Shown: one piece after another, positions 53,580-59,757 of the stretch
How the letters are laid out: every line of letters begins with the position of its first letter
Position numbering within the stretch: the stretch's first letter is position 1
Source of the DNA: Kineococcus aurantiacus
GTDB lineage: Bacteria; Actinomycetota; Actinomycetes; Actinomycetales; Kineococcaceae
Assembly (NCBI RefSeq): GCF_013409345.1
Contig: NZ_JACCBB010000001.1
Span: 3,410,001 to 3,474,000, forward strand
Direction of reading: 5' to 3'
DNA length: 64,000 bases
Translations under genes and position numbers: made by a program
The notes under the pieces: model-generated
Told to the model about the DNA's origin: nothing
What the model saw: only the letters and a program-made list of their open reading frames with translations
The model's database searches: none

Positions 53580-54479
53580 TCAGCCCGCCGCCGGGCAGCG
53601 GTCGAACTCGTACCCGGGCACGCCCCGCGGCAGCAGGTCCCGGTCCCGGTAGACCACCGAGACCTCCGCGCCGCGGGCCGCGCAGGCGTCGGCGAAGTTC
53701 TGCGGCCCGTCGTCGGCGTACTCGACCTCGATGACGTGGTCGCCGTGGACCTCGCGGTACGCCGAGCACTCGTCGTACACCTGGCAGCTCTCGGCCACGG
53801 CGAAGTCGAAACCCGCGGCGCGCGCCTGCGCGGCGGTCGTGCCCGGCGCGTTCTTCTGCGCCACGGCCAGCCCGCGCGCGTGGGCCCGTGCGGACAGCGC
53901 GCTCGCGTAGGCGTACGCGTCGTCCATCGTCAGCGCCCCGCCCGAGCGCGTCGCCGAGTCCAGGTCGTCCGGTTCGACGGCCTGGAAACCGGCGTCGGCG
54001 CAGCCGTCGACCCAGGCCCCGACGACCTCGGCCAGGGCCGCCCGCTTCTGCGGCGTGGAGGTGTCCAGCAGGTACTCCCCGGGCCAGTCCGCGTCCTCGA
54101 CGAGCGACCCGTCGCCGTCGCGCAGCAGCAGGTCCGGGTACCGGGTGAACCAGAGGTCCTCCTCCCCGGGCTGGGTCTGGAACGCGTTGACGTAGCAGAT
54201 CGAGTACAGGCCCGGGACGGGGTCGGCGGTGCGGTCGCGCGTGACGACCCGCACGCCCGCGGCCGGGGGGTAGGGGCCGCCGAGCTGGTAGTCGGCGACG
54301 GCGCCCGGGGGAGGGGGTGCGACGGCCACCGGCCCGGGCGTGGTCACCGGGGACGGGCCCGGCGCCCCGGTGGACGGGCCGGTCGCGGTGGGCGGGCCGG
54401 CCCCGGGGGAGGGGTCGGGGCCGCCCGCGCACGCGGCGAGCAGCAGCAGGCTCGACCAGCCCGCGAGGACGGCACGCAC
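53580..54479 (-). CDS. Lipoprotein with GH114 (endo-alpha-1,4-polygalactosaminidase-like) domain
   Basis: A 299-residue protein. A signal peptide with lipobox LLAAC gives a lipid-anchored protein. A Pro/Thr/Gly linker (residues ~20-60) leads to a TIM-barrel GH114 domain: GLYSICYVNAFQTQPGEEDLW, WPGEYLLDTSTPQKRAALAEVVGAW, DAGFQAVEPDDLDSA and FAVAESCQVYDEC. The family includes enzymes acting on galactosaminogalactan-type polymers. GGAGAAG is 9 nt before the GTG. It is divergent from a GNAT gene. Confidence 0.85.
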   Translation of the reverse strand: MRAVLAGWSSLLLLAACAGGPDPSPGAGPPTATGPSTGAPGPSPVTTPGPVAVAPPPPGAVADYQLGGPYPPAAGVRVVTRDRTADPVPGLYSICYVNAFQTQPGEEDLWFTRYPDLLLRDGDGSLVEDADWPGEYLLDTSTPQKRAALAEVVGAWVDGCADAGFQAVEPDDLDSATRSGGALTMDDAYAYASALSARAHARGLAVAQKNAPGTTAAQARAAGFDFAVAESCQVYDECSAYREVHGDHVIEVEYADDGPQNFADACAARGAEVSVVYRDRDLLPRGVPGYEFDRCPAAG

Positions 54480-57895: not shown

Positions 57896-59215
57896 GTGGT
57901 GCAACGGGTGCGAGGACGGTCCCGGCGGCTGCTGGGCGGATCGGTGGCGGTGGCGTGCCTGACGGCGACGGTCCTGGCCGCGCCGGCCCGGGCCGCCGGG
58001 CCACCCGCGGTGGGCCCGGCGGCGGGGGAGGCGGCGGGGGAGGCGCTGGACCGGGCGTCGTTCGTCGACCCCACGGTGCAGGTGCGGTACCCGCCGTCGG
58101 TGGAGCTGGGCGAGCGCGTCTACGTCGGTCCCTTCGCCCAGCTGTTCTCCGGCCGGCGCGCGGGCATCGCCATCGGGCCGGAGTCCAACGTGCAGGACTC
58201 CGTGCGCGTGGAGGCGCTGCTGCCGCGCAGCGCCGCGCAGGAACGGGCGATGGCCGCCGCGGGGCTGCGCCCCACCGACGGGGTGCGGACCGGTGAGCGG
58301 GTCATCCTGGCCCACGGGTCGGCCGTGCGGGGACCGGCGCGCCTGGGCGTGGGGGCCGCCGACCCGGCCGACTCGGGCGTCTTCGTCAGCTTCGGCGCGC
58401 TCGTCGACGGGGCCGTGCTGGAACGCGACACCGGCCTGTCCGCCCTCAGCCGGGTCGGGCCGGGGGTCGTGCTGCGCAGCGGGACCCTCGTCCTGCCGGG
58501 CAAGGACGTGCGCACGCAGGCCGAGGCCGACGACCCGGCGCTGGGCAAGGTCCGCCCGCTCGTCGAGGCCGACCGGTTGTTCAACGCCGCCGTCGTGGAG
58601 GTCAACGTCGGCCTGGCCCGCGAGTACACCCGCCTGGCCTCGGAGGAACCCGACGCGGTCCGCGGCCTCAACGTCGACCCCGGCGGCAACGAGTTCGACC
58701 GGTCCCGGGACGCCCCCGCGGTGGAGTCGGCGCTGTGCACGGGCCCGGAGGTGCGCGACCCCGGGTTCCGCAACCGGGTCATCGGCGACGTGTGCTTCGA
58801 GGACGACCTGCGGACCCTGTCGCAGCGCATGGGCTCGCGCATCTCGCTGCGCGCCGACGAGGGCGGGCCCTTCTCGGTCGGCACGGTGCGCAGGATGGGC
58901 GACGGCACGATCTTCCACGCCCTGGAGGGGTCCGACCTGTCGGTGGGGAACCGCGTGACCTACGGCGAGCGCGTCGTCGTCCACGGCGGCGGGCGCCCGG
59001 CCGTGGACCCCACCACCGGGGTCGCCGCGCCCACCACGATCGGCAACGACGTCCGCCTCGGCGACGGTGCGGTGGTCTTCCGCTCCCTGGTGCGCAACGG
59101 GGCGGTGGTCGGCGAGCGCAGCGTCGTGGTCGGCAGCGAACTGGCCGTGGGGCAGGTCGTGCCCGACCGGACGGTGTACGCCAACGGCGAGGTCTTCGGG
59201 CCGGTCGAGTGGTGA
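57896..59215 (+). CDS. Exported protein of two gamma-carbonic-anhydrase-like (left-handed beta-helix) domains
   Basis: A 439-residue secreted protein: signal peptide with hydrophobic core VAVACLTATVLAAPARA, then two beta-helix halves. The N-half (residues ~45-260) reads GPESNVQDSVRVEALL and VILAHGSAVRGPA; the C-half (~300-439) reads ISLRADEGGPFS, DGTIFHALEGSD and RVVVHGGG. These match Methanosarcina thermophila Cam around its zinc site. The N-half keeps only the His117 equivalent (His140), with Glu106 and Arg145 at the His81 and His122 positions. The C-half keeps His341 and His363 (His81, His122) and Arg319, Asp321, Glu322, Glu344. GGGAGGG precedes GTG. It overlaps a lipoprotein gene by 4 nt. 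Confidence 0.85.
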   Translation: MVQRVRGRSRRLLGGSVAVACLTATVLAAPARAAGPPAVGPAAGEAAGEALDRASFVDPTVQVRYPPSVELGERVYVGPFAQLFSGRRAGIAIGPESNVQDSVRVEALLPRSAAQERAMAAAGLRPTDGVRTGERVILAHGSAVRGPARLGVGAADPADSGVFVSFGALVDGAVLERDTGLSALSRVGPGVVLRSGTLVLPGKDVRTQAEADDPALGKVRPLVEADRLFNAAVVEVNVGLAREYTRLASEEPDAVRGLNVDPGGNEFDRSRDAPAVESALCTGPEVRDPGFRNRVIGDVCFEDDLRTLSQRMGSRISLRADEGGPFSVGTVRRMGDGTIFHALEGSDLSVGNRVTYGERVVVHGGGRPAVDPTTGVAAPTTIGNDVRLGDGAVVFRSLVRNGAVVGERSVVVGSELAVGQVVPDRTVYANGEVFGPVEW

Positions 59216-59757
59216 GACCGGCCCGGGCGGGTGCCGCGCTGGCGGTGCTCCTGGCGGTCGCGGGTTGCTCGGCGGCCGGGTCCCGGCCGCCGTCCCCACC
59301 GCCTTCCTCACCGCCCTCCCCACCCGCCCCGCGCGTGTCCGCGGCCCCCGGCGACCTGCGCGTCGCCACCGTGGAGGAGCGGCGGGACGGCACCGGCCCC
59401 GACGGGGCGCCGGTGGTGCGGTGGAGCGTCGACTGGGAGCTGCGCTGGGCGCCGGTGCCGGGAGCCGTGTCCTACGCCGTCCGCTACGCCAGCGCCGAGG
59501 GGGTCCCCGCCGGGGCCGCGGCGGACGACACCGTCGAGGGGACCTCGCTGGTCGTCACGGCGGCCGCGGGGACCTCCCCGCCCGCGCGGTACGAGGTCGA
59601 GCGGGACGCGGGGCTGCTGCTGACCTCCTCGCAGCTGCTGGTGTCGGTGGGCGCCGTCGGCGCCGACGGCACCGAGGGGCCGGCCACCGGCTGGGTCCCC
59701 GTCGGCGACGTGCCGGCGGACGGCCGCCCGCTGACCACCCTCGCGCACGGGCACTGA
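59212..59757 (+). CDS. Predicted lipoprotein with fibronectin-III-like domain
   Basis: A 181-residue protein. The signal peptide ends in lipobox AVAGC, so it is anchored outside the membrane. After a Ser/Pro-rich linker, WELRWAPVPGAVSYAVRYA, VEGTSLVVTAAAGT and LLLTSSQLLVSVGAVGADG read like one fibronectin type III fold. No catalytic motif. GTG overlaps the stop of the beta-helix protein gene by 4 nt (GTGA), so the two act as a pair at the cell surface. Confidence 0.75.
   Translation: MRPARAGAALAVLLAVAGCSAAGSRPPSPPPSSPPSPPAPRVSAAPGDLRVATVEERRDGTGPDGAPVVRWSVDWELRWAPVPGAVSYAVRYASAEGVPAGAAADDTVEGTSLVVTAAAGTSPPARYEVERDAGLLLTSSQLLVSVGAVGADGTEGPATGWVPVGDVPADGRPLTTLAHGH

Follow-up and report, generated by a model that had tools for sequence, protein, structure and literature searches.

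The gamma-carbonic anhydrases (gamma-CAs) known so far are trimers (PMC13261364), and their metal sites lie between subunits, the ligands His81 and His122 (in the numbering of Cam from Methanosarcina thermophila) being provided by one monomer and His117 by its neighbour (PMC7199487, PMC4519908). Second-shell residues of the type of Glu62, Glu84, Gln75 and Asn202 have been tied to CO2 hydration and proton transfer (PMC4519908), and Arg59 of one monomer is ion-paired with Asp76 of the next (PMC8000050, the numbering of which was mapped by spacing). At the CAL2/CA2 interface of plants, the CA2 equivalents of His117, Gln75 and Asn202 face the His81 equivalent of CAL2 (PMC9873573; residues H130, Q101, Y207 and H124 of that paper were mapped to Cam by spacing and with PMC8000050). 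An interface thus has two sides, one made up of Arg59, Asp61, Glu62, His81, Glu84 and His122, and the other of Asn73, Gln75, Asp76, His117 and Asn202; that Glu62 and Glu84 sit with His81, and Asn73 with Gln75, is our inference from their position. Since the sites lie between identical subunits, each subunit normally retains both sides.

The two halves of the tandem protein

The window, i.e., the whole analysed stretch of 64,000 nucleotides from Kineococcus aurantiacus, contains a gene for a tandem gamma-CA-like protein (Table 1), the sole match of its kind in its own genome (E 0.001). Two gamma-CA-like domains on one chain had been proposed in the original prediction, and this is borne out, as each half matches Cam separately and the profiles of the two halves are homologous to each other (hhalign, one-against-one; E 7e-7, probability 92%, 19% identity). 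The NCBIfam Cam model NF040597 matches the whole protein in two stretches with 93.7 bits, which lies below the 380-bit cut-off of this equivalog model; with the halves cut apart, the scores are 51.5 bits for the N-half and 44.6 bits for the C-half. Among PDB entries the best match of the N-half (1.7e-11) is the Cam-type dGCA1, followed by Cam, and the C-half matches CcmM, its top match, and Cam (best 7.5e-10). The N-half can be aligned over the greater part of Cam, C-terminal region included, and the window C-half stops after the beta-helix. Judged by homology, both halves are gamma-CA domains of the Cam/CamH/CcmM family, with a left-handed beta-helix as the predicted fold. The only structure prediction of the window protein has a mean pLDDT of 53 and a wrong overall shape, at approximately 11–14 Å rmsd to gamma-CAs, and is unusable on these grounds.

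Two cysteines, C281 and C300 (58736-58738 and 58793-58795), flank the start of the C-half and are also present in the relatives from the same genus (L002) and from Euzebyaceae (L040); possibly they form a disulfide.

Table 1. Features of the tandem gene and its downstream neighbour; positions are those of the window, and residues are paired with their Cam equivalents.
Feature	Position	Strand	Remarks
Tandem gamma-CA-like protein gene	57896..59215	+	439 aa, GTG start, frame open throughout
Signal-peptide-like N-terminus, residues 1-34	57896..57997	+	Read by eye; cleavage after ..APARA plausible
N-half, Cam-like domain, residues 54-248	58055..58639	+	With C-terminal helix region; His117 side kept
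N98, V99, Q100, D101 (Cam N73, V74, Q75, D76)	58187..58198	+	Q and D in 30/30; N in 25/30, D in 5
H140 (Cam His117)	58313..58315	+	30/30 in the His set; 0/25 in the site-less branch
N237 (Cam N202)	58604..58606	+	30/30 in the His set
Linker between the halves, residues 249-288	58640..58759	+	From alignments
C-half, Cam/CcmM-like domain, residues 289-439	58760..59212	+	Without C-terminal helix region; His81/His122 side kept
R319, A320, D321, E322 (Cam R59, S60, D61, E62)	58850..58861	+	R, D and E each 30/30
H341, A342, L343, E344 (Cam His81 to Glu84)	58916..58927	+	H in 30/30; E in 28/30, K in 2
H363 (Cam His122)	58982..58984	+	30/30; ungapped register seen in the D. deserti relative
Lipoprotein gene	59212..59757	+	Lipobox LLAVAGC; start codon and tandem-gene stop codon overlap; probable partner

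Division of the site residues and its conservation

The window protein contains three histidines in total, and these are H140, H341 and H363. The N-half has H140 at the His117 position, with E106 and R145 at those of His81 and His122, while the C-half has H341 and H363 at the His81 and His122 positions, E358 at that of His117, and R319, D321, E322 and E344 at those of R59, D61, E62 and E84. Every residue named in the original prediction (His140 of LAHGS, Glu106, Arg145, His341, Glu358, His363, Arg319, Asp321, Glu322 and Glu344) is therefore where it had been placed. Neither domain has all three ligands, and the set is complete only over the two halves combined. In phmmer alignments of the window C-half with Cam and CcmM, H363 is not paired with His122 because an insert follows H363; in the relative from Deinococcus deserti, this stretch aligns with Cam free of gaps, with His on His122 and Asp on His117 (E 3.6e-22 overall). 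The division extends to the second shell, as the equivalents of R59, D61, E62 and E84 lie in the C-half and those of N73, Q75, D76 and N202 in the N-half; an earlier claim, which had covered only the former four, was correct for these, and the N-half set is added here. With one side of the interface kept in the C-half and the other in the N-half, the arrangement fits a site between a C-half and an N-half, not trimers made of N-halves only or of C-halves only.

Relatives were collected from several groups. A first scan of contigs yielded six close tandem relatives, from Chloroflexi, Geodermatophilus, Euzebyaceae and three planctomycetes. Profile A1, although built from pattern-bearing sequences, also recovered proteins of the site-less branch described below. 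At the cut-offs applied, it matched 7 of the 112 genomes from the Geodermatophilus family, 6 of the 301 from the phylum Chloroflexi, 8 of the 396 from the phylum to which Euzebyaceae belong and 32 of the 297 from the planctomycete class (seeds included in each case); the planctomycete matches comprise six of the three-histidine type, the rest being mostly site-less and some partial. The gene was found in 2 of 11 genomes of the genus, the own genome included, and in 1 of 394 genomes of the class sample, namely the own genome, so that its distribution is patchy. An origin in mobile elements was considered and set aside, as phages gave no match and plasmids a single record, plasmid 3 of Deinococcus deserti. 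It is also worth mentioning that two planctomycete members, L041 and L042 (590 and 541 aa in total), have long N-terminal extensions ahead of the tandem domains, with repeats that we take to be FG-GAP- or DUF4214-like.

Thirty full-length tandem proteins with the histidines, that of the window included, make up the His set, which covers Actinomycetota, Chloroflexota, Planctomycetota and Deinococcota and falls into 16 clusters at 70% identity (median pairwise identity 42%, minimum 26%). L068 is counted among the 30 though it does not differ from L067 in any column compared, for which the 70% clusters correct. Left out of the counts were L040 (frame broken in the assembly), L090 (N-half incomplete) and the partial planctomycete sequences L108, L115, L116 and L117. 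The N-piece and the C-piece of L040, read apart, both fit the pattern, and the C-half of L090 carries both histidines, with Lys for Glu84.

All three histidines occur together in each of the 30 proteins, as they do after re-alignment with more rows, and in this sense the halves hold complementary parts of a putative zinc site, as had been predicted. In the C-half, R59, D61, E62, H81 and H122 are each present in 30/30 and E84 in 28/30 (Lys in L089 and L098), and both proton-shuttle glutamates of the Cam subclass, E62 and E84, are present in the window C-half. In the N-half, Q75, D76, H117 and N202 are each found in 30/30, and N73 is Asn in 25 and Asp in five. The opposite copies are mostly lost: in the N-half H81 and H122 remain in 0/30, R59 in 6/30, D61 in 2/30 and E62 in 4/30, and in the C-half Q75 and N73 in 0/30 and H117 in 2/30 (L096 and L097), with D76 in 19/30. 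Invariant columns number only 17 out of 386. Nine of these are site residues, out of 11 predicted (hypergeometric 3e-12, with columns treated as independent), and invariance is seen at none of their ten counterparts in the opposite half. After the pattern had been tabulated on a first group of 17 sequences, 13 further full-length members of the His set were gathered, all of which fit it. It lies beyond chance, since the sole three histidines of the window protein fall at the three ligand positions and the pattern is kept in 30/30. In single-domain gamma-CAs from the same searches, the three-histidine motif lies within one chain in 36 of 41 cases by reading (a regular expression gave 39; three are doubtful, L016, L017 and L035, and two, L009 and L037, are without the motif).

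Free variation at the three histidines had been named as the outcome to look for in homologues, and none was seen: 30 proteins have all three, and the other 25, which form one branch, are without at least two. These site-less full-length tandem proteins are all planctomycete (L069-L082, L103-L107, L109-L114). His117 and His122 are absent in 25/25 and all three ligands in 22/25, L105, L107 and L114 retaining His81 alone. R59 of the C-half and D76 of the N-half, the residues of the inter-subunit ion pair, are retained in 25/25, as is D61 of the C-half, and of the other site residues E62 is kept in 5/25, E84 in 1/25, Q75 in 5/25 and N202 in 14/25. In a tree that has 54 rows, leaves out all 21 site columns and is subject to a long-branch warning, the site-less proteins form a single branch (100/100) and the state "three ligands" changes once; an earlier tree, with 15 of the 21 site columns removed, L093-L098 absent and 14 site-less proteins, agrees and carries the same warning. 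Both trees were midpoint-rooted for drawing, and the placement of this branch inside the family assumes a root off the site-less branch. One change on the tree points to a single loss of the site and not to twenty-five, and the branching of L105, L107 and L114 near the base of the clade would fit a stepwise loss. We read the branch as one in which the metal was lost and the interface between C-half and N-half was apparently preserved. Both kinds of protein occur in genomes G570 (L065 and L103) and G688 (L066 and L104). An exception is L115 (genome G700), a frame of 251 aa with an N-half only, which keeps N73 and Q75 and has Gln at the His117 position and Ser at D76; it may be either a broken copy or a separate form.

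The presence of the site-less branch in many planctomycetes could be taken to mean that the tandem proteins are decaying copies, forming metal-free trimers of N-halves and of C-halves apart, with histidines of a structural role, and the contact between the halves is here, after all, predicted from sequence. Such an explanation is most improbable, as exactly complementary residues are invariant at a median identity of 42% in several phyla, the site was lost once on the tree, and a pure N-trimer or a pure C-trimer could not use the residues that are retained. A single composite site between C-half and N-half is very probably what these residues form. The original prediction of one complete site between the halves after a division of labour is in this way supported by the complementary retention and the joint conservation.

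Neighbourhood, and proposed export and function

The neighbours of the tandem gene are the lipoprotein gene of Table 1, the start of which shares the bases GTGA with the tandem stop codon, and genes for glyoxalase-like and DnaJ-C28-like proteins. Another exported lipoprotein-like protein, which we take to resemble GH114-type glycoside hydrolases, is encoded at 53580-54479 on the minus strand of the window. A lipoprotein frame directly 3' of the tandem gene was found at 10 of 10 actinobacterial loci, that of the window included, and also at L091; the frame is broken in L040 and L064. Ten of the downstream lipoproteins align as one family (L091 included, L064 left out), to which searches by sequence in Pfam and the PDB gave weak matches only and no known family. 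A reading of the lipoprotein as an FnIII- or Ig-type domain, a visual impression, was unsupported by these searches and was dropped. None of the eight Chloroflexi and planctomycete loci has a lipoprotein gene after the tandem gene, nor does L085, and at L084 no lipoprotein frame is present within the 265 bases to the contig end. In a divergent lineage (L086, L087) the tandem protein itself starts with a lipobox followed by a long Gly-rich linker. Two modes of anchoring suggest that the tandem protein has a surface role. The lipobox and signal motifs were recognised by eye against what we take to be their consensus. The signal peptides contain SRRDLIK in L038 (~5467), DRRAFLG in L084 (near the start) and SRRLLGG in the window; the first two are presumably twin-arginine-like, which would fit export after metal loading.

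In the mechanism proposed here, the C-half of the presumably exported protein would pack on the N-half as neighbouring Cam subunits do, giving R59, D61, the proton-shuttle residues E62 and E84 and the ligands His81 and His122, and the N-half would give His117, N73, Q75 and N202 together with D76 as the acid of the ion pair. One metal, Zn or Fe, would be held by H341, H363 and H140 and would activate water; E322 and E344 would pass protons, with Q100, N98 and N237 taking part in a hydrogen-bond network. The composite site probably acts as a carbonic anhydrase, and CO2 hydration is likely to take place outside the cytoplasm, in actinobacteria probably at the membrane beside the co-translated lipoprotein.

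A real composite site might also serve another chemistry, such as acyltransfer, esterase activity or metal storage, as in PaaY-type and acyltransferase relatives. The general Hexapep repeat, the only Pfam match of the tandem protein above cut-off, would agree with this, as would the incomplete interface of plant gamma-CA2/CAL2, which binds a CoA thioester (PMC9873573). Set against it are the conserved second shell, which is Cam-like (E62, E84 in 28/30, Q75, N202) and of the kind tied to CO2 hydration and proton transfer (PMC4519908), and the annotation of the Deinococcus relative as a carbonate dehydratase, which is a name and not a test. Taken together, these points make another chemistry unlikely. 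CoA is, to our knowledge, not to be expected outside the cytoplasm, which likewise speaks against this reading.

A point against an enzyme with a composite site is that two domains on one chain are too few to close a ring of three, and the genome yielded no single-domain gamma-CA above the cut-off that could fill the third place. A site that depends on a hetero-oligomer, in which a separate single-domain gamma-CA-like chain completes the ring as in CA1/CA2/CAL of plant complex I, would be in line with the trimeric state of known gamma-CAs (PMC13261364) and with the existence of mixed rings that have a single complete interface (PMC9873573). This is very unlikely, however, as the genome has no gamma-CA above the NF050158 cut-off, four weak matches considered for a third chain all read by eye as acetyltransferases, and the adjoining gene encodes a lipoprotein without a Pfam match and not a gamma-CA. 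A beta-CA match is present in the genome too (PF00484, 52 bits; C1:3555674-3555880), which covers only positions 2-73 of 156. For the composite site within the tandem protein, we lean towards an open pseudo-dimer within one chain, an assembly between chains being equally compatible with the data.

The history of the family may tentatively be drawn as follows. After duplication and fusion, the sides of the interface would have been split between the domains once, early, and this division would have become fixed across phyla; the resulting single-chain C-half/N-half pseudo-dimer with one site would be tethered on the outside of the membrane, either through the lipoprotein that is translationally coupled to it or, for one lineage, through a lipid anchor of its own, and the planctomycete branch would be metal-free. 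This scenario, taken as a whole, is possible rather than probable.

Comparison with known systems

On the sequence evidence, the tandem, site-dividing form appears to be a new variant of gamma-CA, in which the two sides of the interface are parted into covalently linked domains, so that it offers a natural experiment on the assignment of residues to halves and on the need for a trimer. It makes the rule that gamma-CAs are homotrimers directly testable, and in a one-site, one-chain enzyme a single residue change could be studied instead of three. It also suggests that Actinomycetota, Chloroflexota, Planctomycetota and Deinococcota have a group of carbonic anhydrases which has gone unrecognised, exported and perhaps associated with the cell surface. 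In the literature searched, which mostly left subscription journals outside its scope and so gives a weak negative, no tandem gamma-CA with divided ligands is described.

Both halves align to Cam of M. thermophila (PDB 1THJ, 1QRG, 3OTZ), and their union comprises R59, D61, E62, N73, Q75, D76, H81, E84, H117, H122 and N202; Cam, however, has one domain per chain, the full set in that domain and three equal sites per trimer, whereas in the tandem protein two domains share the set between them. The gamma-CA domain of CcmM (PDB 7O4Z, 3KWC) is the top PDB match of the window C-half, and among NCBIfam models it is CcmM that the Deinococcus relative matches best, though under the cut-off (191 of 550 bits). 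CcmM is a carboxysomal, cytoplasmic protein with a single gamma-CA domain, unlike the exported-looking, two-domain tandem protein. The Deinococcus relative itself, WP_012694801.1 from plasmid 3 of D. deserti, called "carbonate dehydratase" by name only, is a family member with the same complementary ligands; it differs from the window protein in having Lys for Glu84 and is 28% identical to it over 84% of the latter. A chain with two carbonic anhydrase domains also occurs in the alpha class, the fold of which is unrelated to that of the gamma class. The example is a dual-domain enzyme from the giant clam, the abstract on which opens with no mention of a division of one site (PMC5879104). The mitochondrial complex I of plants, with its CA1, CA2 and CAL2 subunits, resembles the tandem protein in that differing subunits form one interface with three histidines, the others being incomplete (PMC9873573). 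The plant proteins are, however, separate CA and CAL chains of the CamH subclass located on complex I, and the tandem protein, bacterial and exported-looking, is one chain with the glutamates of the Cam type.
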